In this document: one piece after another, positions 1,868-64,000 of the stretch
Layout of the letters: each line of letters starts with the position of its first letter
Numbering within the stretch: position 1 is the first letter of the stretch
From: Haloferax elongans ATCC BAA-1513
Lineage (GTDB): Archaea; Halobacteriota; Halobacteria; Halobacteriales; Haloferacaceae
NCBI RefSeq assembly: GCF_000336755.1
Contig: NZ_AOLK01000023.1
Coordinates: forward strand, 115,070-179,069
Direction: 5' to 3'
DNA length: 64,000 nt
Notes under the pieces: model-generated
Told to the model about the DNA's origin: nothing
What the model saw: only the letters and a program-made list of their open reading frames with translations
Database searches by the model: none
Made by a program: the position numbers and the translations under genes

Positions 1868-3161
1868 ACGACGACACGACCGTGAATTCGTGCGGACGTT
1901 CTTCACCTCGCCCACGGCGGTCGAAGGCGAGGAGGACTCCGCCAAGATGCTCCGCCGAGCGGCCCAACTCCGCGGGATGCAGGCCCCCGACGTGTGGGTG
2001 CCGGACAACGAAGACGCCACCGCGCCCTCGATGCGCGACGAAGGCGTCGAAAATATCGTCGAGGTCGTCTCCGAACACGGTGCCGACTTCCCCGGCGAGA
2101 TTCACCCGCGCATGGTCTGGCACCGCGACAGCCCGACCACTCGCTATCAGGGCTTCCAGCACATGCTCGACGTCGCCGACCCCGAACGGGGCGCAATCGA
2201 GCACATCGACGGCTTCGTCATCCCCGAAGTCGGCGATATCGACGACTGGAAGAAGGCCGACGAGTTCTTCACCATCGTCGAAAACGAGCACGGCCTCGAA
2301 GAAGGGAGCCTCAAAATGTCCGTCATCATCGAGAGCGGACAGGCAGAACTCGCCATGGGCACCCTCCGCGAGGAGATGGGGAAGCCGACGAACAACCTCG
2401 AACGCCTGTTCCTCCTCGTCGACGGCGAAGTCGACTACACGAAGGACATGCGCGCTATCACGCCGACGGGCGCACTCCCCGAGTGGCCCGAACTCCGGCA
2501 CAACACCTCGCGCGGTGCGAGCGCCGCTGGCCTCATCGCAGTGGACGGCCCGTACGACGACATCCGCGACATCGAGGGCTACCACGAGCGCATGCAGGAC
2601 AATCAGGCGAAGGGGATGCTCGGTATCTGGTCGCTGACGCCCGGACAGGTCGTCGAGGCGAACCAGTCGCCGTTGCCGCCGAAGACCGGCAGTTGGCTCC
2701 TCGACACCGGCGACGGTGAAGTCGAACTCGACTCCGAGGATGGCGTGGAAGTGTACGAGGGCGACCGCGTGTCGCTCTCGGAGACCACCGACGGCTACGA
2801 ACTCACCGTCGGCGGGTCCACGCAGGTGCTCGACAGCGACGAGTTACACGAGGAACTGCTGAACATGACCGCCTACATTCCGAGCATGGACGACATCGTC
2901 GACTCCATGGAGGAGTTCGAGGCGGCCAAAGAGGCCGGTCGCGGCGCAATCGCCATGGAGCGGTCGACAACGCTCCGCATCGGCGACACGGAAGTCGACA
3001 TCGCCACCGACCGCATGTGGGACGAAGCGACCTACCAGGCCGCGATGACGCCTATCAGCCTGTTCCAAGACGTGTACGAGAACCGGCCGGACCAACACGA
3101 GGAACTGGTCGAGATGTACAGCGAGGGCGTCGTCGAGCGCGCCATGGAGGTCGGTCTCTAA
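1860..3161 (+). CDS. aceB: Malate synthase, haloarchaeal type
   Basis: This 433-residue enzyme condenses glyoxylate with acetyl-CoA to malate, the second glyoxylate bypass step. It belongs to the short haloarchaeal class, closer to the citrate lyase beta/HpcH aldolase family than to bacterial malate synthases A or G. The N-terminal barrel contains [13 protein letters not shown] (48-60), [12 protein letters not shown] (79-90) and an acidic metal-binding segment near [11 protein letters not shown] (154-164). The C-terminal part carries a small inserted beta-rich segment (about 270-325) and a helical tail. ATG at 1860 lies inside the end of aceA. Assignment rests on sequence style, length and the operon partner. 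Confidence 0.95.
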
Positions 3162-3369
3162 CTCCTCGCATCCCGGCACGTGGTCGGTATCGACCGCGCT
3201 GCCGGACACGGCTGCCTGATTCCTCGCTGGTCTACTCGGCGTGACCGCCCAATACCGTGGGGGGCGGTGCGCCACGCTCATTTTTGCTGTTTTCGACGCT
3301 CCGCTCGGTTCGACCGTTTTCGACGCACCCGACACCACGCTCAAGTTCGCGCCGCGCGACTCGCGTCCT

Positions 3370-3915
3370 GTGGACGACCCCGTGAACTCGACACAGGCAG
3401 ACGACCGCCGACATCTCGGCGACGCCGACGCAATCGTCGACAGTGCCGACGAGGACGTAGCAGCGACTATGGAACGCCTTCGGACGGTGAGTTACTACCT
3501 CGACGAGGCGTTCGAGATTCCGGGGACGAACTACCGGGTCGGCCTCGACCCCTTCTTGGGTCTCGTTCCGGGCGTCGGCGACGCAACCGGGTCAGCACTG
3601 TCGGCGTACATCCTCGTCGAGGCAGCACTACTCGGCGTTCCCCGAGAGACGCTCGCTCGCATGTTCGGAAACGTCCTTCTCGATGCGACTGTCGGGTCGC
3701 TCCCCCTCGTCGGCGACGTGTTCGACGCCGCGTGGAAAGCGAACAGCCGGAACGTCCGGCTCCTCGAATCCCGATACGACACACCCGAAGCACGCGAGGC
3801 CGACCGCCGGTTCCTCCTCGGCGCAGTCCTCGTCGTGACCCTCCTTCTCGTCGCACTCGGTGTCGCCACTACCCTCGGGGTGCTCTGGGCACTCGGACGG
3901 CTCGGACTCTTGTGA
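3370..3915 (+). CDS. DUF4112 family membrane protein
   Basis: A 181-residue protein from the GTG at 3370 (GTG at 3382 is equally possible; the open frame extends to 3241 but the added residues look non-coding). The core YYLDEAFEIPGTNYRVGLDP, then LVPGVGDATG and the later VGSLPLVGDVFDAAWKANSR, is typical of DUF4112. One or two weakly hydrophobic helices lie in the middle and a clear transmembrane helix is at the C terminus (LLGAVLVVTLLLVALGVATT). Function unknown in the family. Its stop codon at 3913-3915 directly abuts the right end of the transposable element, so its native 3' flank has been displaced. Confidence 0.8.
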   Translation: MDDPVNSTQADDRRHLGDADAIVDSADEDVAATMERLRTVSYYLDEAFEIPGTNYRVGLDPFLGLVPGVGDATGSALSAYILVEAALLGVPRETLARMFGNVLLDATVGSLPLVGDVFDAAWKANSRNVRLLESRYDTPEAREADRRFLLGAVLVVTLLLVALGVATTLGVLWALGRLGLL

Positions 3916-3919
3916 ACTA

Positions 3920-3963
3920 CCCCACCCTACCGCTCGCCTGACGGCTCGCGCTTGAGGGTGGGG
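3920..3963 (-). ncRNA. Right-end hairpin; predicted 3' end of the TnpB omega RNA
   Basis: CCCCACCCT at 3920-3928 pairs perfectly with AGGGTGGGG at 3955-3963. In TnpB elements the omega RNA scaffold is formed from the transposon right end overlapping the tnpB 3' end and continues past the element as the guide. The tnpB TAG (3927-3929) is inside the stem. By that rule the guide here would be antisense to the last codons of the DUF4112 gene (bases below 3920). The RNA itself is inferred. Confidence 0.5.
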
Positions 3964-5219
3964 CTTCCTGTTTCTACGACGCGCTTTGCAGATACGGACG
4001 TATCCACAGGGAACGCAGTCTCCACAGGCGTTAACGAATCGCTCTGCGATTCGTTCGCACACCAGAAACCTTCGATTTCTGGGGACGTTCGTTCGGAGTA
4101 TCCCACTCCTACGTCTTCGAGGCCGCGAGAAAGAATGTTCCACGCCGCGTTCGCGTCCCTGTCCGCCTCAAACCCGCAGGCGGGACAGGAGTGGTCACGG
4201 ACCCACAACGGCTTGTCCGTCGAGACACCACAGGACGCGCACTCCTTGGTCGTCCCTCTCGGGTTGACCGCCACGAAGTGCGTCCCCTCCCGCTCACACT
4301 TGTATTCGAGCAACGAGAGGAACGTCCGCCACGCGGCAGACGCCGTGTTGCGACTGTTCGACGGCGACTCCATCATCCCCTTCACGTTCAGGTCTTCGAC
4401 CGCTACGAGGTCGTATTCCCGAGCATAGTACGCCGAGAGTTTGTGCAAGAAGTCGCGGCGCTTCCGTCGGAGGTTGGCGTGACACTCCGCGACTCGACGC
4501 CGTTGCTTTTCGTAGTTGTTCGACCCGTGTTGCTTCCGCGAGAGTTTCCGTTGCTCGCGCTCCAAGCGTTCACGCTCGTCGGAGAGGTCGAGCGACCCGA
4601 CCGCCGTACCCTCCGTGTCGTGAGCGTACTTGAGAATCCCAACGTCGATACCGACGTACTTCTCGGGATTCTCGGGCGGTTCGGGCGGTTCACGGTCCAA
4701 TTCGACGCCGAAGGTGGCGAACCACTCACCCGTCGGCTCTTTCTTGAGCGTGACCTGCTTGAGCTTCGCGTTGTCGGGGATGGCGCGGTGGAGCCGAATC
4801 GGTATGTCTGCGAGTTTCGAGAGTGACAGGACAGCCTGACCGCCCTTCTTGTCGAGCTTGAAGCCAGACTGACTGTAGGTGAAACTGCGGAACTTCCGTG
4901 GCGACTTCCACTTGAGGTGGCCGACGCCGTAGCCGTTCTCCTTGAGCTTGGAGAGGCCTTTGATGTTGTCGAACAGGCGTTCGACGACGGTTTGGAGAAC
5001 CTTCGAGTACACGTCGGAGAGGTCGTCCCACCACTGCTTGAGGTCGGGGAGCTCCGACCGGAGGGTAGTCATGGACGGCAGTTCGCCGTGTTCGTCTTGG
5101 TACTCGTTGAGGCGGTAGAGCGTGTGGTTGTAGAGTTGCCTACAAATGTCTCGATGGCGGTCCAACTCCTCGCGATGGGCGTCGGATGGCTTGAGACGGT
5201 ACTTGTAGGCGTAGTACAT
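3927..5219 (-). CDS. tnpB: RNA-guided endonuclease TnpB (IS200/IS605 OrfB)
   Basis: A 430-residue TnpB from the ATG at 5219 (MYYAYKYRLKPS, the usual family start). The RuvC-like nuclease triad is present: Asp192 in YVGIDVG, Glu275 in VAVEDLNVKG, and Asp in ADRDANAAWN (352-361). The four-cysteine zinc finger is complete (Cys327, Cys330, Cys345, Cys348). The N-terminal helix-turn-helix region is RNA-binding in this family. TnpB cuts the transposon-excised site under omega RNA guidance, favouring element retention. No frameshift or missing catalytic residue is seen. The start lies four bases after the stop of the ribbon-helix-helix ORF, so the two are probably co-translated. Confidence 0.95.
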   Translation of the reverse strand: MYYAYKYRLKPSDAHREELDRHRDICRQLYNHTLYRLNEYQDEHGELPSMTTLRSELPDLKQWWDDLSDVYSKVLQTVVERLFDNIKGLSKLKENGYGVGHLKWKSPRKFRSFTYSQSGFKLDKKGGQAVLSLSKLADIPIRLHRAIPDNAKLKQVTLKKEPTGEWFATFGVELDREPPEPPENPEKYVGIDVGILKYAHDTEGTAVGSLDLSDERERLEREQRKLSRKQHGSNNYEKQRRRVAECHANLRRKRRDFLHKLSAYYAREYDLVAVEDLNVKGMMESPSNSRNTASAAWRTFLSLLEYKCEREGTHFVAVNPRGTTKECASCGVSTDKPLWVRDHSCPACGFEADRDANAAWNILSRGLEDVGVGYSERTSPEIEGFWCANESQSDSLTPVETAFPVDTSVSAKRVVETGSPTLKREPSGER

Positions 5220-54937: not shown

Positions 54938-54998
54938 GTCTCTCACATAGCGCGACGGTGGAATAGTCATTTTGTCACTGCCGAGCGTACTTCAGGAT

Positions 54999-56261
54999 AT
55001 GGCACACGTCGTCACCGCGTTTCTCCGCAACCGGGGACGCATCCTGCTCACCCGCCGCAGCGACGCCGTCGGCACCTACAGCGGTAAGTGGGCTGGCGTC
55101 TCGGGATACGTCGAGGGCGACCCTAACGACGCCGAAGACGACGCGCGAAGAGAACTCGAAGAGGAAGTCGGCGTCACCGAGGCGACGCTGGCCAACACCG
55201 CCCAACCGATGCACATCACCGACGGCGAGCGCGAGTGGACCGTCCACGCGTTCATGTTCGACGTGAACCACCGCGACATTGCTCCGAACGAGGAACTCGC
55301 CGCGGTGGAGTGGGTCCACGCCCCGGTCATCTGCGAGCGCGACACCGTCCCCGAGTTGTGGCCGACGTACCGCCGAGTGGCACCAACGCTCGAAACCGTC
55401 CAGACAGACGACGCCCACGGCTCTGCGTGGGTGTCGCTTCGGGCGCTCGAAGTCCTCCGGGACGCCGCCTCAGACGCCGAATCGTGGGAAGTACTCGTCT
55501 CGTTTGGCCGCAGCCTACGCGACGCCCGGCCCAGCATGGCCGCCGTCACGAACCGCGTGAACCGCGTGTTGGCCGACGCCGCAGGGGACACGGAGGCGCT
55601 GTGCCAACGAGCTGCGGCGGAAATCGACGCCGCAGCAGAAGCCGACGACGTCGCCTCGGCGGAGGCTGCGCAACTGCTTCGAACAGAGGGCTACGACCAC
55701 GTGGCGACGCTCTCGCGCTCAGGGACCGTCCGCGCAGCACTCGAAGACGCGGGGCCGAGCGTCCTCGTCGCCGAGTCCCGGCCGGGGCTCGAAGGAGTCA
55801 CCGTCGCCGAATCGCTGGCGAAGAAGGGTCTCGAAACCACGCTCACGACCGACGCCGCGCTTCCCGGCCTCGTCGCGGACGGGGCTGTCGATGCTGTCCT
55901 CGTCGGTGCCGACGCTGTTCTCTCGTCTGGAGACGTGGTGAACAAGGTCGGAAGCTACCCCGTCGCACTGGCGGCCGCCCGCGCCGATGTGCCCGTTTTC
56001 GCCGTCTGCGCCCGCGACAAGATTCGCGGCGACGACACCGTCGTCGGCGAGGAAGGCGGCGCGTTGTACGACGGAGACCTGCCGATTACGGTATCGAATC
56101 CGCTGTTCGAACTTGTTCCGTCGGACCTCGCCGATGGCGTCGTTACTGAGGAGGGGAGGCTGGATTCGGACGGTGTCGAGCGCGTCGCGGCCGAGCACGC
56201 CGAACTCGCTCGGTGGGACGAGTCCACGTCGTCGGGAGCGGACGCGGGCGGCGACGGCTAA
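54999..56261 (+). CDS. Fusion of Nudix hydrolase with an eIF2B-like domain
   Basis: A 420-residue protein. Residues about 1-140 are a Nudix domain (GVSGYVEGDPNDAEDDARRE, then LEEEVGV; the Nudix box has one extra residue in the loop but the EExG end is intact). From about 175 a domain like the eIF2B alpha/ribose-1,5-bisphosphate isomerase family follows: EGYDHVATLSRSGTVRAALE, then VLVAESRPGLEG and DAVLVGADAVLSSGDVVNKV, the sugar-phosphate/nucleotide-binding signature. Such fusions are known in haloarchaea; a role in nucleotide or ribose phosphate salvage is plausible. ATG at 54999. Confidence 0.88.
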   Translation: MAHVVTAFLRNRGRILLTRRSDAVGTYSGKWAGVSGYVEGDPNDAEDDARRELEEEVGVTEATLANTAQPMHITDGEREWTVHAFMFDVNHRDIAPNEELAAVEWVHAPVICERDTVPELWPTYRRVAPTLETVQTDDAHGSAWVSLRALEVLRDAASDAESWEVLVSFGRSLRDARPSMAAVTNRVNRVLADAAGDTEALCQRAAAEIDAAAEADDVASAEAAQLLRTEGYDHVATLSRSGTVRAALEDAGPSVLVAESRPGLEGVTVAESLAKKGLETTLTTDAALPGLVADGAVDAVLVGADAVLSSGDVVNKVGSYPVALAAARADVPVFAVCARDKIRGDDTVVGEEGGALYDGDLPITVSNPLFELVPSDLADGVVTEEGRLDSDGVERVAAEHAELARWDESTSSGADAGGDG

Positions 56262-56344
56262 GAGATACTTGCGGGTCGTCTCGCGCGGCCGCCAAATTGA
56301 TGCTACCGTAGGGAGAGCACCGTCACAGGGCCCCGTTCCGAACG

Positions 56345-56500
56345 ATGGCAAACCCAGTCGAAGTGCTCAGTTTGTTGGTGGTGCTGGAGTTCGTGATTAT
56401 GTCCGCGATAGTGCTGGTCTTGGTTCCGCTGGAAGTTGCAGCCCCGATTATCCCGCTTTTGCTCGTCTTCTTGGTCGCGTTGCAGTTGTATCGTTCGTGA
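56345..56500 (+). CDS. 51-residue membrane protein
   Basis: ATG at 56345 to TGA at 56498-56500: MANPVEVLSLLVVLEFVIMS, then AIVLVLVPLEVAAPIIPLLL and a short end QLYRS. Almost entirely hydrophobic, so two membrane helices are likely. The frame is short, but its uninterrupted hydrophobicity supports it. It is the last gene with host-like composition before the AT-rich island. Confidence 0.6.
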   Translation: MANPVEVLSLLVVLEFVIMSAIVLVLVPLEVAAPIIPLLLVFLVALQLYRS

Positions 56501-56934
56501 GGCTGTGACTGTATTCCGAGTGGGAGTAGGCAGGTTAGTTCACGAACTTGGTGTGTCGATGTCGATTCGGCCGTCGCCCGTGACTCGCACGGCGACACTC
56601 TTCACGGCGACAGAAGTCGATTCTTGTTGCCATTTATATGATTAGTTAAGTGTATGTTCGGGCTCTTCTTTCAGCAACGTTTGAGAATATTGCTGATTTG
56701 GTGTTTTAGCCGAGTTGAATTAAAATGGTTTTACTATATGACTTGATAGTCAACAAAGGCATCGCTGAAGTCAGGTATTCGCCGATAGCTTCACCAGAGA
56801 AGTCAACAATTTGTCATCAAGAATGTACTGAACTAATTCGTGTTGGCCCTCTGATGTACACCCAATGATCCGTGAAGAAATGCTGCCCTACTCGTAATCC
56901 CGGAGTGCCATTAATTCAAACGCCGCCACTTAGT
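56501..56934. other. Intergenic composition boundary
   Basis: GC-rich to about 56630 and then distinctly AT-rich, with no convincing gene until the methyltransferase stop at 56935. The frames that cross it are overlap shadows. The shift from chromosomal to island composition falls here; I could not find a tRNA gene or clear attachment-site repeat. Confidence 0.6.
56540..56605 (-). pseudogene. Possible tiny ORF or remnant at the island edge
   Basis: GTG at 56605 to TGA at 56540-56542 encodes 21 residues (KSVAVRVTGDGRIDIDTPSS) with host-like codon use and a beta-strand pattern typical of haloarchaeal proteins. A CATATAAATGG TATA-like box lies about 30 bases upstream on the minus strand. It could be the tail of a gene cut by the island, or chance. 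Confidence 0.2.
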
Positions 56935-59091
56935 CTACTGAATGCTTCCCACAGTAGAAGGTTCAGAGTCAATTTGAATTTCCTGATGGAACATGTCGGC
57001 GAGGTATGTATCGATCTGTTTGATGACGTCTTCCTCGTCCTCAGAGTCGCTACGTGCAGTAGTGCAGAGGTCGTCGAAGAGACTAGCAAGAGTGGTAGTT
57101 TGTTCATCCGTGAGGTCTCCTGGGTCCATAACGAGTGCCTCTTTCAACTCGTTTGGTTCTACCTTTTTAAGTCCAGTAGCATATGTTCGGCCTGCTTTTC
57201 GAACAATTTCGTCGGCAACACTGCTGTTGAGATACGAAAGAAGCGCTTTCGTTTGCTGTTTGTCGTATTCGTCAACATATATGCAGTGCAGGTTGTTCAG
57301 GTTCCGAACTCCGGCTTCGTTGTGGGTGAATTTGAAACCCTGTTTTGACATATAGGTCGCGAGAATGTCTGCCGGTTCTCGACGTTCCACAAGGTACCAT
57401 GGGTCACGGTTACTAGCCAAGTAGCTCGTATCTGCTCCTATTTCTTCCCCATACCGTAGGTATGCGTCAAGCGCAACGTCGTCGATCTCGCTACGGTTCT
57501 CATTGACGTGGTATAATAACCAAACTTCCTCACCATCAGCTGTCCACTCCTCAAAATCTTCGTCGGTGTAATTGTAGCGAGGTTTGCCTCGCGACTTCCG
57601 AACTAGAGGGGACAAGTATTTCGTATCGAGTTGCGCCGCTTTCACTTCGTGTTCTGTGAGGCAGAAGTAATCATTCTTACCTGTTGCAATACCTCGCTTT
57701 AGAGTCCCGATTTCTCGGAGAGGCTTTAGATCAGGACTCTTGGCGATTGGATTGGTTTCGGTGTCTGGTCCGAAATGGTGAGTCCATTTCTCATCTGGTG
57801 ATAGTTTAGTTTGGTCGACCAATTGGATGTGACCATAATTTGTGACTCCTTCGGCACCGTTCTTGATATCGTCGAGTAGTTCGTCGCCCAGTGACCAATC
57901 AGATAGCTCAATGAACTGGGTATGGCCCGAATCTTCGTCACCTGTTTTCTTTTCGAGGAGTGTGATACAGGAGGTTGTTTTTGCACCGTCGAATATCAGC
58001 GAGTCCTGGTTGTTGTGTAGGATTAGGGCCTTGATGTGGAACTCGTTGAGCAGGAACTGCTTGAGTGGTTCTCCATAGTTCGTTTCCAAGAACTCAGATG
58101 GAGTGAGGAACGCCATTTTCCCCCCAGGTGCCAGGAACTGCGCTGCGTGGATGAAAAAGAAGAGATACATTGGAGAGTGTCCAGATAGTGATAGGCCCGA
58201 CTCAGCTTGTGCGATCTCTTTGATTCGGCTTTTATCGAACTTACTCAGTTCGTGGTGACGTGAATATGGTGGATTGGATAGGATAGCATCGAATTCAGGG
58301 AATTGGATCGCTTTCTCGGTATCCAGTCGCTCCTTTGCGTCTGGGTTGACAGTCTCCATGAAGTCTCCGGCGAATACCTTTGGTGACCCTTCGCCGTTCA
58401 CGAGTTTGAGTGCGGTAGCAGACATCACCACGGCGAGTTCACTGAGATCGATACCATACATCTCATTGACGCGAGAGGGCCCAGGAAGCCCGATCTTGGT
58501 TTCGTACGCACATGCGGTTAACGCACCTGCCCCCATGCCCGGATCAAGTACTGTATCTTCTGCTGTATCAATCGACCAGTCAGCTAGTATTCGTGCAACG
58601 TGGTCCGGGGTTCGGAATTGGCCGAGTTTACGGCGAGAATCTTGGAGGACTATCTCCTCAAAGATACGCCCGATTAGCTCAGGTTTATTATCGGCATCTA
58701 ACAGAAGGTGACGGGCGTCGATAACCGGGTGAAGCGTATCATCGCCTGCTGCCTGTGCTATTTCGTCAAGGAAGTATCTAGTGAACGCTTCGTTATTGGT
58801 TTCTTTTTTAGCAATGGCGAAGCATTCAGCGAGAGTTTGCTGCGAGCCCAGCTTTGGGAGGTCGACACCGTCAAGTCTGTAAACGGAGTACAGAGCAGAT
58901 TTCAGTAGAGTACTAAATGCTGCCTGTTTGGCTATTGTAAGGTTAGAATTTTCGTGTTGATCGAGTCCATGGAGACTCTTCCAGTGTTCCGCTTTTTTAT
59001 TAAGTGTGGATTCTTGGGCAAGGGGAACCTGCTGGTGTATGGCCTCTCCAGCTTCAATAATCGAGTCATGGAGTGATGGCCTTTCAGACAT
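56935..59091 (-). CDS. N6-adenine DNA methyltransferase
   Basis: A 718-residue class I methyltransferase from the ATG at 59091. Motif X region RRKLGQFRTP (153-162), AdoMet motif I VLDPGMGAGAL (181-191), GIDLSELA (213-220) and motif IV NPPY (273-276) are in the gamma-class order. The C-terminal third, from about 440, should be the target-recognition domain (YFCLTEHEVKAAQL, then NNLHCIYVDEYDKQQTKALL), resembling TaqI/Eco57I-type proteins. No nuclease or helicase motif is visible in the chain. Whether it is the modification half of an R-M or BREX-like system or an orphan is not shown. Codon use is AT-richer than the host genes. Confidence 0.92.
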   Translation of the reverse strand: MSERPSLHDSIIEAGEAIHQQVPLAQESTLNKKAEHWKSLHGLDQHENSNLTIAKQAAFSTLLKSALYSVYRLDGVDLPKLGSQQTLAECFAIAKKETNNEAFTRYFLDEIAQAAGDDTLHPVIDARHLLLDADNKPELIGRIFEEIVLQDSRRKLGQFRTPDHVARILADWSIDTAEDTVLDPGMGAGALTACAYETKIGLPGPSRVNEMYGIDLSELAVVMSATALKLVNGEGSPKVFAGDFMETVNPDAKERLDTEKAIQFPEFDAILSNPPYSRHHELSKFDKSRIKEIAQAESGLSLSGHSPMYLFFFIHAAQFLAPGGKMAFLTPSEFLETNYGEPLKQFLLNEFHIKALILHNNQDSLIFDGAKTTSCITLLEKKTGDEDSGHTQFIELSDWSLGDELLDDIKNGAEGVTNYGHIQLVDQTKLSPDEKWTHHFGPDTETNPIAKSPDLKPLREIGTLKRGIATGKNDYFCLTEHEVKAAQLDTKYLSPLVRKSRGKPRYNYTDEDFEEWTADGEEVWLLYHVNENRSEIDDVALDAYLRYGEEIGADTSYLASNRDPWYLVERREPADILATYMSKQGFKFTHNEAGVRNLNNLHCIYVDEYDKQQTKALLSYLNSSVADEIVRKAGRTYATGLKKVEPNELKEALVMDPGDLTDEQTTTLASLFDDLCTTARSDSEDEEDVIKQIDTYLADMFHQEIQIDSEPSTVGSIQ

Positions 59092-59431
59092 TTCAGTTAT
59101 GTTGTTGGTGGTAAACGGAAGGATGATTCTTATAAATACTGACTTCACTATCAGGAATATCGTCTATTTGAAATGAGAGGGGTGTTTGGATTGAAAGTGT
59201 ATGCATTCTCACTCTTTTATACTCATTGACCTTGTTCTAGAAAGACCTATCCTTACGTTCTCGGCAGTCCTTTTTTACAAACAGATTATCTGTGGTGTCG
59301 CATATCGGGTTCAACATGTCACCTGATGTGATGAAGCGGATGGTGAAGAGATTCTAGTAGTCCATGCACCAGGTGCTTGAACCACCACTACATTGGGAAG
59401 GCCACCGTTGAGAATGGCACCTAGAGCCCGC
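59092..59431. other. AT-rich gap upstream of the methyltransferase
   Basis: About 340 bases without a credible gene. A minus-strand TATA-like AGTATTTATA (59131-59140) lies about 40 bases upstream of the methyltransferase ATG, suggesting an own promoter with a leader of about 14 bases. A long minus-strand frame at 59311-59625 overlaps the peptidase gene and is not credible. No RNA-gene-like or repeat-array structure is seen. Confidence 0.5.
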
Positions 59432-60169
59432 TCAAACAGGCCCTTGAGAGAGAAGTCGTTGCCACTGGCGATTATGATGCACGGCGTACCAGAATCCCTG
59501 TAGTTCGTCCCGGTATGTTTGGTACCCCGGCACGAGAGTATCCACGAGTTCCCAGAATGCCTCAGTGTGGTCTGGTTCACGCAGGTGGGACACCTCGTGG
59601 GCGACAAGATAGCGGAGGTGTCCAATTGGGAGGAACGCGCAGCGCAGATTGAAATTTAACGTGTCTCCGTTCGAACAGCTGGCCCATTTTGTCCGCTGTG
59701 AACGGATACTTAATTTCGAATAAGTTACATTTATCTGCTCACAGAAATCTGAAGCAATCGCCTTAATTGCAACAGAAAGTGCCTGTCGAAGCTTATTATA
59801 GAGGTACTGTTCGGTTGACTTCGATTCGGGTGATGTAACACGTAATGTCGCAGCATCGATGCTGAGATCGTATTGGCCAGTCCGTTCAATGAGGGAGTAG
59901 CTCTTTCCCCAAATAGTGAATTCTTCTTCCAATACCTCGTACTGTTCTCGAATCGCTAAGAGCTTAGCCTGCTGTTCATGATACTCTTCCGCAATCCAGT
60001 CCTCTTCGCGAGCAACCAATGTGTGCCCCGGTGTGTCCGGCGGAACAATGACAGCAAGCGTGCCATCAGGATTGAGTGTGATTCGGGGGTGCTCAACCTC
60101 TCTCCGGTCAATTGAGTAAGGAAGTCGCTCGCCGGAAGGGAGAGTCACCGATTTCGGGCCGCTGCTCAC
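59432..60169 (-). CDS. YgjP/DUF45-type zinc metallopeptidase
   Basis: A 245-residue protein from the GTG at 60169. The catalytic core is LRYLVAHEVSHLREPDHTEA with the HExxH pair (His191, His195) and a third ligand in DHTEAFW; TKWASCSNGDTLNFNLR is a typical upstream region. YgjP-like proteins are often found next to type I restriction genes. The start 60169 is preferred over the GTG at 60187 because it lies about 28 bases from the shared TATA-like box, so it could be leaderless. It precedes the methyltransferase by 340 bases in the same direction. Confidence 0.9.
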   Translation of the reverse strand: MSSGPKSVTLPSGERLPYSIDRREVEHPRITLNPDGTLAVIVPPDTPGHTLVAREEDWIAEEYHEQQAKLLAIREQYEVLEEEFTIWGKSYSLIERTGQYDLSIDAATLRVTSPESKSTEQYLYNKLRQALSVAIKAIASDFCEQINVTYSKLSIRSQRTKWASCSNGDTLNFNLRCAFLPIGHLRYLVAHEVSHLREPDHTEAFWELVDTLVPGYQTYRDELQGFWYAVHHNRQWQRLLSQGPV

Positions 60170-60194
60170 GCTGGTGAAAGCGTACACCCTGGAT

Positions 60195-60226: not shown

Positions 60227-62596
60227 ATGGCCGACTCAAACCAAGAGACAGTCACATTTACAATTGACAGTCGGCTTCTGGAGGAGTTGGGTGAAAACCT
60301 AGTCACCCGAAACCACGTCGCTGTCGGTGAACTGATCAAAAACGCGTATGACGCTGACGCGACAGAGGTGATCTTAGAGTTTGAAGACGCGACAGCAGAC
60401 GATACGACTGACAGTGAAATCCGCGTCATAGACGATGGAATCGGGATGACAATGGAAGAAGTCCAGGACGACTTCATGCGGATCGCGACAACGAACAAGC
60501 GTCGCAATCCCATCTCAGAGAAATTTGGCCGGGAGAAAGCAGGTGACAAAGGGATTGGTCGATTCGCCTGTCGACGGCTTGCAAACATTCTCGAGATCGA
60601 AACGACTGCTAAGAACTCAGACGGGGCCTACGAACGGACAGTATTGGAGATTGACTGGCGGGAGTATGCGGCTGATCAGGAAATTGAGGAAGTCACCTTC
60701 CAAGCCGACGTCGAGATTCTCGAAGAAGAGGATGAAGCCGAAATATCGACGGGAACGACTCTCCGGCTACGAAACCTTCAGGATTCGTGGTCACAACGGG
60801 ATTTCGACACGCTCCGACGGAATGTAGTGAATCTCGCGATAGTTCAACCACAAAACCGCCCAGAAGGTGAAGAGCCTGACCCGGGATTCGATATAACGTT
60901 CCGGGCACCAGAGTTTGAATTAGGAGATGGATCCCTCTCCGAGCAAGTTCACGACGCTAGCTGGGGCTGCCTCGAAGGAGAGATTGGTTCTAATGGTAAA
61001 GTGAGCTTAGAACTCAATGCGAAGCTGATCGGGCATCGATCGTATTCCTTCAACCACGACTCAACGGGACTCAAAGGTACAACGTTCAAAATATCGTATA
61101 TCCCATTGGATACGAAAGAGCACTATCGCGACTCCAAGACTTTAAGCCTTGGACGAGCCCGTGATATAGCCGATGACCAGAGCGGGGTTCGTGTGTACAA
61201 AGGTGGGTTTCGGGTGTTCTCCTATGGCGGCCCGGATGACGACTGGCTAAATGTCGATCAAAAAAAGACAACTCACGCAAACCGATCGCCCAGTGAAACG
61301 TTCAAAGGGCTGCGTGGGAACATGGACTTCCACCGGGACTTCGATAACATCCTCCTATCAGGCCCCTCAAACAGGAATCTGGTAGGGCGGGTAATGATCA
61401 GTTCTGACGCCGATCTGAAGATGGCATCGAACCGAGAAGACTTCATGGAGAGTGATCTCATGGATGACCTCCGTGAGATCGTTAGCCTCAGTCTGGAATG
61501 GCTCACACTCCAGTGGAGCCATTACAAAGCGGTGAAATCACGGAAAGAACTCGAGGAAGAAACTGAGAAGTTTCTGGACGAAACGACAGATGGCAATTCA
61601 GACCGTGAATCGGGGGACGTTGGTCTAGATAAGTGGAATAAAGACAGTCCTGACGAGGATACATCTGACGAGGAAGATGAGCCCGAGCGAGAGCCCGTTG
61701 ATAGTGCGATTGATTTGTTGGAGGGTGTCGCGGACACTGCAACAGATACCGTTCCCGAAGATGAGCGGCAAGTCTCGAACGAAGCGGTCGAAACTGCGAC
61801 ACGCGTAATCCGTAACACGATCGACCAGAAGGAACGCGAGATCGACTTCTTCCGGTCGGCATTTTCTGTTAATCAGGTCGTTTTCTCGTTCTCCCACGAA
61901 CTCCGGTCCATGGTTGGGCGTCTAGGAAGTAATGCGGCCGAGATTGAGAGAGTGTTAGACGATATTCCGGAGTCCCGCCGCGACGATTTCGAAGAAGTAA
62001 TTTCGGATCTCCGAACCATGGAAGAGCGGTTCAAGAACCAGATGGAACTCTTCGGCCTCTTTATGGAAACAGGAAATCAAAAGACAGCAGAGGAGCAGCA
62101 CGTACGCGAGATCGTAGACGACGTTATTGAAGCAACGGAATATATCGCAGAGTATTATAATGTTGAGATCAGTCAGGATATCTCAGACTTGTTATATACT
62201 CCGCCGATGTTTAAGTCAGAACTTTATTCAATCGTTATAAACCTACTAACTAACAGTATCAAAGCTGTGGGAACATCTGGAAAAGACGGAAATAGAATTC
62301 ACGTGGATGCCAAACAATCAGAGGAAGGAGTTCGCCTGCGAGTTTATGATAACGGTGTTGGACTCCCAGAGGGGGCGCGTGAAGAGGCTTTCCAACCGCT
62401 TATTTCAGACCCAGTAAACAACATTTACGAGGATCTATCCACCCAAATGCCTGCAGAGTTGTCTGATCAGTTGGGCCGAGGGACTGGTCTTGGGCTCAGT
62501 ATCGTTCGGAATATCGCTGAGAAGTATGATGGTCAAGCTCAGTTCATTGATACTGAAAATTGGTCGACCTGTGTTGAGGTGACGCTGAATGAGTGA
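60227..62596 (+). CDS. Protein with two GHKL ATPase domains and an HisKA-like region
   Basis: A 789-residue protein. The N-terminal ATPase (about 1-200) is of the MutL/Hsp90/MORC type: GELIKNAYDADA (34-45, Glu35, Asn39), DDGIGM (69-74) and GDKGIGRFACRR (107-117). After a middle domain (about 230-420) and an acidic coil linker, a histidine-kinase-like dimerisation helix has FSHELR with His557 (553-560), and a second GHKL domain at the C terminus has INLLTNSIKAVG (Asn676), DNGVGLP (708-714) and GRGTGLGLSIV (750-760). No membrane segment. Two GHKL modules in one chain are unusual. The stop overlaps the receiver gene by eight bases. Promoter box ACTTTTAA is 27 bases before the ATG. Confidence 0.9.
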   Translation: MADSNQETVTFTIDSRLLEELGENLVTRNHVAVGELIKNAYDADATEVILEFEDATADDTTDSEIRVIDDGIGMTMEEVQDDFMRIATTNKRRNPISEKFGREKAGDKGIGRFACRRLANILEIETTAKNSDGAYERTVLEIDWREYAADQEIEEVTFQADVEILEEEDEAEISTGTTLRLRNLQDSWSQRDFDTLRRNVVNLAIVQPQNRPEGEEPDPGFDITFRAPEFELGDGSLSEQVHDASWGCLEGEIGSNGKVSLELNAKLIGHRSYSFNHDSTGLKGTTFKISYIPLDTKEHYRDSKTLSLGRARDIADDQSGVRVYKGGFRVFSYGGPDDDWLNVDQKKTTHANRSPSETFKGLRGNMDFHRDFDNILLSGPSNRNLVGRVMISSDADLKMASNREDFMESDLMDDLREIVSLSLEWLTLQWSHYKAVKSRKELEEETEKFLDETTDGNSDRESGDVGLDKWNKDSPDEDTSDEEDEPEREPVDSAIDLLEGVADTATDTVPEDERQVSNEAVETATRVIRNTIDQKEREIDFFRSAFSVNQVVFSFSHELRSMVGRLGSNAAEIERVLDDIPESRRDDFEEVISDLRTMEERFKNQMELFGLFMETGNQKTAEEQHVREIVDDVIEATEYIAEYYNVEISQDISDLLYTPPMFKSELYSIVINLLTNSIKAVGTSGKDGNRIHVDAKQSEEGVRLRVYDNGVGLPEGAREEAFQPLISDPVNNIYEDLSTQMPAELSDQLGRGTGLGLSIVRNIAEKYDGQAQFIDTENWSTCVEVTLNE

Positions 62597-63659
62597 GTAC
62601 ACTATCTGGTGGATCGATGACAATGAGAGTCGCATTGAGGATTCTGAACGCCTAGAAGATGAATTGAACAACGCTACAGTCCAGTTCACAGGGCCTGATA
62701 AAGCCATAGAACAACTCAATCCAGAGCACGAGAATATCGAGGGTTTGGACGAGCTTGATTTGGTACTCATCGACTGGAAGTTACACGAGAAGAGCAAGTT
62801 CCCTGGCAAAGGTCTCACGATGGCAGGGCGAGTTCGTGAGGTATATCCGGGAGTCCCGATCTATGGCTTTAGTTCTGAAATTTCCGCACTACGTGCAGGT
62901 GCTGGAGACGATCAATTTGAAGCTATCTACGAGGACAGCGATCTAAAAGGGGGTGATAATGCGGCTCTGATTGAGTCTGATCTCGAAGACTACGCTACGA
63001 TTGAAGCAGCTCGTGGGGAGGGATTCGAGGCACTCATTGAAACACTCAATCCCCCGGAGGACGCGATAGAGGCCCTTCGAAGTGTCGTCCCGCGTGAGTA
63101 TAATAATGGACTGAGATCAGATCCCAATGTCAAAGGCGGAAGTACAATCCAATTTGGACGCTGGATCCGTAGCCGGTTCTTAGAAACGCCTGGTCCGCTC
63201 ATCGATAATGTCTGGGCTGCGACGAAAATTGGGCTCCGTCCTGACCAACTGGAAGATTATCACGATGAGTTAAACGGGACAAACCGCGGTGAAATCACCT
63301 ACGATGGAGTGTTCAGCCACCGAGTTCCAGACCGGTGGTGGTCGACATCAGTGATCGGTGCAGTTGTCGCAATTGCAAGTGATCGTGAGGCCCAGTTCGG
63401 GAAACTGAACACTTTTGGGAAAGACGTCTTCGAAGTAGATGAACTTCCGCGGTGCCAGGTTTGTGGTGAAGAACTCCCCGAAACAGTTGCAGCAGGACGA
63501 GATGGTAGAGACGCAGAGAGTCAAGTTCACCTGAGGTGTAGCCATGTACATCATACTAGAGAGGGTGAGTTCGAAGACTACCGCATTGCGGACAAACTGG
63601 AAGTTTCAGAAGAAACAGAAGAGCCCCCAATAAATCCGGAACAGGAGGGCTCTAACTAG
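62589..63659 (+). CDS. Receiver-domain protein with C-terminal zinc site
   Basis: A 356-residue protein. Receiver-like N terminus: WWIDDNESR (Asp10, Asp11), phosphoacceptor Asp62 in LVLIDWKL, and YGFSSE (93-97) with a Ser at the Thr/Ser position; the usual lysine is not evident (EAIYEDSDLK). A novel middle domain (about 140-285) includes WIRSRFLETPGPLIDNVWAA. Near the C terminus CQVC (289-292) and CSHVHH (317-322) look like a zinc-binding site. It overlaps the preceding GHKL gene by eight bases, and the next ORF starts one base after its stop, so it is the second gene of an operon. The two-component likeness suggests signalling from the GHKL partner. Confidence 0.85.
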   Translation: MSEYTIWWIDDNESRIEDSERLEDELNNATVQFTGPDKAIEQLNPEHENIEGLDELDLVLIDWKLHEKSKFPGKGLTMAGRVREVYPGVPIYGFSSEISALRAGAGDDQFEAIYEDSDLKGGDNAALIESDLEDYATIEAARGEGFEALIETLNPPEDAIEALRSVVPREYNNGLRSDPNVKGGSTIQFGRWIRSRFLETPGPLIDNVWAATKIGLRPDQLEDYHDELNGTNRGEITYDGVFSHRVPDRWWSTSVIGAVVAIASDREAQFGKLNTFGKDVFEVDELPRCQVCGEELPETVAAGRDGRDAESQVHLRCSHVHHTREGEFEDYRIADKLEVSEETEEPPINPEQEGSN

Positions 63660-63660
63660 A

Positions 63661-64000
63661 ATGCCGCGGCTACCTTCTCCGGACACTTTACTCCCAAAGC
63701 CTAAAGAGCTGTATTCACGGTTAGTGGATGAGGTTAGATTTCTCAAAGATCAAGCTGGAATGAAAGAGAATAACAAAAACAGCCTCGAGCGGAGCTACCA
63801 CAGACTCTCTAACCAGGAACCAACAGATTGGACTCTCAATATTCAGCCAAATTGGATAATTAAGATTGAGGCGCCCGATGAACGAACACAGCGAGACAGG
63901 TCACGGGATTTCAGTAACGATGATGGATGGGCAGTAATCGGGGGATATATTTCAGTTAGAGACAATGAATACACTAACTATTCAATCAATCTAACTATAT
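63661..64000 (+). CDS. Third gene of the GHKL cassette, partial
   Basis: ATG at 63661, one base after the receiver gene stop, opens a frame that stays open to the window end (at least 113 codons). MPRLPSPDTLLPKPKELYSR, then VDEVRFLKDQAGMKENNKNS and PTDWTLNIQPNWIIKIEAPD; the last visible part is YTNYSINLTI. Strongly AT-rich, no recognised domain. A short coiled helix then a beta-rich region. Its frame beginning right after a stop shows tight operon coupling. Confidence 0.7.
   Translation, partial: MPRLPSPDTLLPKPKELYSRLVDEVRFLKDQAGMKENNKNSLERSYHRLSNQEPTDWTLNIQPNWIIKIEAPDERTQRDRSRDFSNDDGWAVIGGYISVRDNEYTNYSINLTI

Follow-up and report, generated by a model that had tools for sequence, protein, structure and literature searches.

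What does the change of base composition in this stretch of Haloferax elongans DNA mark? The window, by which we mean the whole stretch of 64,000 nucleotides that was analysed, covers bases 115070-179069 of a 269-kb contig in a genome of 3.95 Mb, and at the boundary in question the GC content drops from ~0.65 to ~0.48. The best single break gained 77.5 log units in the 5 kb around the boundary, compared with at most 13.9 in 49 five-kb windows from the rest of the window. Its maximum-likelihood position was 56340-56341 (support 56289-56393), and a model with two breaks (56610 and 56845, with a GC of 0.37 in the middle) was better by 3.3 log units and no more. The GC content changes stepwise, from 0.64 at 56262-56344 to 0.53 at 56345-56540, 0.59 at 56541-56630 and 0.41 at 56631-56934, so that the lowest GC begins at about 56631. 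The first-pass annotation of this DNA had described a sharp boundary between GC-rich and AT-rich sequence near 56630. The change that it saw is real, but the placement is blurred, with the best single break at 56341. The deviating composition is of the kind by which genomic islands are recognised. As detailed below, the boundary is the left border of a recently acquired foreign gene cassette of 8 kb in an insertion hotspot. The account as a whole, namely a foreign cassette in a hotspot, moved recently by homologous recombination and carrying defence-like cargo, we consider probable by a modest measure. The features at the two borders are as follows:

54990..56261, plus strand: gene (open reading frame) for a protein of 423 aa with NUDIX and eIF2B/MtnA-like domains; conserved left anchor, native flank
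56262..56344, no strand: native intergenic sequence, GC 0.64; 83% identity to H. larsenii, which is ordinary divergence
56345..56500, plus strand: gene for a 51-aa hydrophobic protein; missing from empty sites, probably older content of the hotspot
56487..56554, no strand: left boundary of the near-identical tract and most probable place of the exchange junction (two-rate maximum likelihood and base-level alignment)
56543-56641, minus strand: open frame of 33 codons without ATG; homologue only in H. larsenii
64526-64592, plus strand, outside the window (L041 10595-10661): predicted C/D-box guide RNA gene of 67 nt; right anchor

The two anchors define the site in the whole genus. The left anchor protein matched NCBIfam models of eIF-2B-related and NUDIX proteins, every one below its curated cut-off, and its gene is present in 15 of 15 genus genomes. 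In all of them the guide RNA gene lies after it, with H. profundi and H. marinum read through matching contigs. Nine of the 15 sites are empty, with the guide RNA 51-126 bp past the stop of the left gene (counted by the RNA core). Four hold other genes (2.2 kb in G005 and G006; 2.2-2.4 kb in G007, which is H. marinum, and G012, which is H. profundi). The remaining two, those of this genome and of Haloferax larsenii JCM 13917, hold the island, and here the spacing from anchor to RNA is 8.3-8.4 kb. In a wider survey that used the 19 Halobacteria loci among 80 loci retrieved, the RNA was found downstream of the left gene in 19/19 and within 41-182 bp of it in 14. Since the content between the same two neighbours varies across relatives, the region between the NUDIX/eIF2B-like gene and the guide RNA gene is, judged by this comparison, a hotspot. 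The first-pass annotation had taken the boundary for the start of an island acquired by a Haloferax and had proposed a comparison with a Haloferax genome lacking the island; the empty sites in 9/15 genus genomes provide that comparison and bear the reading out. They do not support 56630 as the junction: the segment 56262-56640 is also missing from the empty sites, and within that segment the identity with H. larsenii switches from the ordinary level to near-complete at 56487-56554.

The same annotation had proposed that a 21-codon frame on the minus strand was the tail of a gene cut by the event. Such a frame exists (33 codons from stop to stop, at 56543-56641), and the GC there is moderate (0.59 at 56541-56630). 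Nevertheless, a search of 14 genus genomes gave a best match of E 0.12 outside this genome and H. larsenii, and there was no homologue below E 0.1 in the 12 other genus genomes searched and no DNA match in the flanks of nine other cassette loci; the empty sites, too, contain no gene of this kind. Without a recognisable homologue, the frame is not identifiable as the tail of a host gene, and we regard a cut gene with a surviving 3' end as very unlikely. On two further points the earlier observations agree with ours. A scan of the window and of 12 loci from its flanks or from relatives found no tRNA gene. The longest direct repeat between the two island ends was 7-8 bp, which is within chance, since control pairs had equal or longer matches in 76-99% of draws. 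Insertion at a tRNA, target duplication and terminal repeats were ruled out, none of these having been found.

To the right of the border, the island carries five genes and ends at ~64470, about 470 bases past the end of the window:

56935..59148, minus strand: N6 adenine DNA methylase, Eco57I/TaqI-like, 737 aa (PF02384, PF07669, PADLOC MTase_II)
59432..60187, minus strand: YgjP-like metallopeptidase, 251 aa (PF01863, 131.9 bits against a cut-off of 26)
60227..62596, plus strand: protein with two GHKL ATPase domains, 789 aa (PF13589, 80.9 bits; PF02518, 91.6 bits)
62589..63659, plus strand: predicted receiver-like protein, 356 aa (W-I-D-D and D-x-D-W invariant in an alignment of seven homologues)
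63661..64000, plus strand: protein of 269 aa whose gene extends past the window, to 64470; no family match

The comparison with the nearest relative, H. larsenii JCM 13917, bears on the age of the event. That genome holds the same island at the same place and with the same gene order. Across the cassette region, 56935-64470, a BLAST-based count gave 14 differences in 7536 bases (99.8% identity), compared with a mean identity of 93.6% outside the island (168 kb aligned, two syntenic contigs). Of 165 one-kb bins, those reaching an identity of 0.985 were seven island bins and one isolated bin. A two-rate maximum likelihood model applied to the alignment placed the near-identical tract at 56487-64601, with its ends supported at 56487-56554 and 64578-64601; the right end, outside the window, is the 3' end of the guide RNA gene. 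Position and gene order, being the same in both species, could also be explained by an old insertion in the common ancestor that was kept by selection. However, the noncoding parts of the island are near-identical too (five differences in 434 bases at 56501-56934), whereas native intergenic sequence outside the tract differs at 14/83 positions (17%) at 56262-56344 and at 27/136 (20%) at 64603-64738, which makes ancestral inheritance hardly credible. A single block of 99.8% identity in two genomes that are both drafts also looks like the product of cross-contamination or of an assembly in which two related genomes were mixed. To this explanation we give next to no weight: the copies differ at 14/7536 aligned positions, each is embedded in species-specific flanks that continue unbroken on a large contig (269 and 369 kb), and the H. 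larsenii copy has a 91-bp tandem duplication of its own in the peptidase gene. This duplication (59712-59801; contig 17 of H. larsenii) shifts the reading frame, so the cassette may be decaying in that species. The carriers of the island at this site that could be compared are these two draft genomes.

The left end of the tract separates two levels of divergence. In the 51-aa gene at 56345-56500, 6/156 bases differ from H. larsenii, which is the level of ordinary genes, while the cassette is near-identical. From this we infer that the site probably has two layers, an older one consisting of the gene for the small membrane protein and a recent one that comprises the cassette together with the guide RNA and the element upstream of it. 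A homologue of the 51-aa gene adjoins hisF in other Haloferax. In the 900 bp upstream of hisF (eight loci), this hisF-side homologue was absent from the present genome, H. larsenii, G010 and G005. The gene thus stands beside the eIF2B-like gene here and beside hisF in other Haloferax, as a relocated small gene.

On the right, the foreign sequence ends at ~64471-64482, and the composition break there falls at 64523 (support 64469-64599); both lie outside the window. The RNA gene at this border was characterised from an alignment of 17 sequences, made up of the 19 Halobacteria loci minus H. larsenii (whose sequence is the same as that of the window), H. prahovense, H. denitrificans and H. massiliensis, plus L041 and L040. 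Its closing stem is paired in 102/102 cells of this alignment, with two pairs changed on both sides. Boxes C, D', C' and D are recognisable, although C, D' and D are degenerate in some species. In the 23S rRNA of the same genome, helix 69 contains GGGGGUAAC, with which the guide GTTACCCCC pairs. In C/D guides, the target is the fifth base before D'. Applied here, this rule gives G1950 of 23S rRNA as the target. PMC2584109 locates the antisense element of such RNAs just upstream of D or D'. According to the same source, G1950 is Gm in H. marismortui and is assigned to a C/D guide; the pairing of the present guide with helix 69 likewise sets the fifth base before D' on G1950. The RNA gene at the border is therefore predicted to be the guide for Gm1950 assigned in PMC2584109. 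An initial pattern for the rRNA target matched only the guide RNA itself and was dropped. A cmscan search of four flank loci (L041, L037, L035 and L038) at gathering cut-offs gave no Rfam family for the guide RNA. In H. denitrificans, a different AT-rich insert of 2.3 kb lies directly right of the same guide RNA gene (L037 ~1880-4146; L091 11346-13700), and its two genes resemble, as judged by eye, PIN-type and ASCH-type proteins.

How did the cassette come to lie between these anchors in both species? Profile searches found no integrase or recombinase among the five cassette genes. We propose that the cassette was recently transferred from one of the two lineages to the other, or reached both from a shared source, through homologous recombination between flanking sequences once cells had mated. 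On the right, the crossover would lie within the guide RNA gene or at its end; on the left, it would lie close to the gene for the small membrane protein. The cassette would need no integrase of its own. The segment 64483-64601, which spans the guide RNA gene along with the element upstream of it, shows no difference from H. larsenii, and identity that runs across both to the 3' end of the RNA fits recombination better than adjacent insertion.

The main competitor to recombination is site-specific insertion, in which the recombinase of another element would have inserted the cassette independently at the same point in both species. The tract ends near the cassette on both sides, with near-identity stopping within ~150 bp right of the cassette and, on the left, before the first cassette gene. 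Such proximity of both crossovers to the cassette is unexpected for one long exchanged tract and counts against recombination. In addition, this cassette is also known from other loci and from a plasmid, and intergenic sites are described in PMC8371274 as usable by archaeal integrases. On the other hand, there is no integrase and no terminal repeat, and the 11-base guide core is present as a single copy in the genome, which means that the guide core was not duplicated as an attachment site. Moreover, an element inserted left of the guide RNA would not replace 64483-64601, yet the identity covers that stretch. We thus consider independent site-specific insertion unlikely, and prefer recombination in the flanks with moderate confidence. 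For recombination, the guide RNA gene is not the sole possible anchor, because blocks of perfect match that could serve recombination are frequent elsewhere in the flanks: 160 kb contained 258 perfect-match runs of 77 bp or more. Right of the tract, the nearest such block that reaches 60 bp begins at 65706.

Similar events have been described elsewhere. In bacteria, the account of hotspots by Oliveira et al. 2017 (PMC5635113) includes integrase-less ones with recombination in flanking core genes. These resemble the present site in their variable content between conserved neighbours, in having no integrase and in the flank recombination proposed; here, by contrast, the host is an archaeon, a gene for a small guide RNA forms the right neighbour, and the content was found in two genomes only. 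The islands reported from Halorubrum ezzemoulense (PMC11078007) are likewise low-GC cassettes with defence genes, located between conserved genes and exchanged among relatives. As they are described, many of those islands have integrases or lie near tRNA genes, whereas this island has neither, and here the near-identity crosses a species border. Literature searches combining both species with genomic islands, or archaeal box sRNA with integration sites, returned no title concerning this locus. The event is therefore ordinary in kind, and the guide RNA gene at the border is its unusual landmark. A tentative extension is that, in haloarchaea, gene cassettes repeatedly settle beside this conserved C/D-box guide RNA gene, whose short, near-invariant sequence would act as a perfectly matching recombination anchor even where the flanks of two species have diverged. 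If this were true, defence cassettes could cross species borders cleanly, in the way that tRNA genes serve integrases but free of an integrase, and if other guide RNA genes prove to act as anchors too, their surroundings would be a new place to seek archaeal defence genes. In any case, what began as a composition step is now a mapped exchange, with two conserved anchors, an empty site and tract ends located within tens of bases, and mating could test directly whether a defence-like cassette passes cleanly from one Haloferax species to another.

The gene content suggests a function for the cargo. The methylase exceeded the cut-offs of both Pfam families (PF02384, 69.7 bits against 20.4; PF07669, 68.1 bits against 25.3) and matched PADLOC MTase_II at 2e-61, so that, as predicted from sequence, the methylase component of a type II restriction-modification system is present. 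The GHKL protein has an N-terminal HATPase_c_3 domain and a C-terminal domain of the histidine-kinase type. The product of 62589..63659, which had no family match in Pfam, PADLOC and NCBIfam profile searches, is probably receiver-like, and its plasmid homologue carries the annotation response regulator. The last two cassette proteins had no match in searches of family profiles or PDB profiles, and their structure models are of low confidence (mean pLDDT 55.8 and 57.9). The combination of a methylase, a GHKL/kinase-type sensor and a receiver suggests modification-based defence, possibly with an effector switched by the sensor. Most likely, the five-gene cargo would work as a DNA-modification-based, signal-controlled defence system.

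The cassette as a whole (methylase, double-GHKL protein, receiver-like protein and fifth partner) fits no defence model tried, and no model of a complete known system in PADLOC or NCBIfam was matched in full. Two candidates were rejected. For MADS, NF047738 gave 45.1 bits against a cut-off of 720 and PADLOC mad2 hit the methylase at 1.8e-27, with no other mad gene among the matches listed. For BREX, PglX (NF033452) gave 31.4 bits against a cut-off of 500, with no other BREX gene among the matches listed. As to a cognate restriction endonuclease, the N-terminus of the GHKL protein shows a resemblance to BbrUII/HgiDII enzymes that is confined to residues 10-200 (87.1 bits, below the cut-off of 550). 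ParaMORC ATPases combine a GHKL with an S5 module; of these two, Pfam recognised the GHKL domain. As in the MORC/paraMORC restriction-modification neighbourhoods outlined by Iyer et al. 2008 (PMC2292703), a GHKL ATPase stands beside DNA methylase genes in a sporadic, mobile setting. In contrast to those neighbourhoods, the cassette is without a superfamily II helicase or a recognised nuclease, and it has two GHKL domains in one protein, followed by the gene for the predicted receiver-like protein; the main text of that paper mentions neither receiver nor YgjP. Among viral contigs, there was no relative of the GHKL protein. Phage records gave four weak partial matches to it, one weak match (residues 13-129, E 5e-6) being with a phage protein that carries the annotation ParaMORC3.

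The cassette is also found in other genera and on a plasmid. The GHKL protein was matched at E 1e-30 in 9/148 family genomes, including this genome and H. larsenii. The complete set of five genes, in unchanged order, is present at four other loci (L068-L071); in L068 and L071 the methylase gene is inverted. Other loci are less complete: L072 has no detectable methylase or peptidase, the short locus L060 has a partial methylase and is without the 269-aa gene, and L073 has, besides the GHKL protein, only a methylase and a peptidase match of 30 residues. In L072 (7967-10401, genome G101), the GHKL protein lies in two frames and is perhaps broken or truly two-part. The Halomicrobium plasmid pLC1Hm-01 (NZ_CP044130.1; L174 3661-11188) carries all five genes near an orc1/cdc6 gene; the fifth is missing from its gene table. 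Finally, the present genome has a second pair of methylase (52% identical) and GHKL genes (L074 7850-12619, contig ~90.8-95.6 kb), which sits in a low-GC stretch of 43 kb that is not aligned to H. larsenii contig 17.
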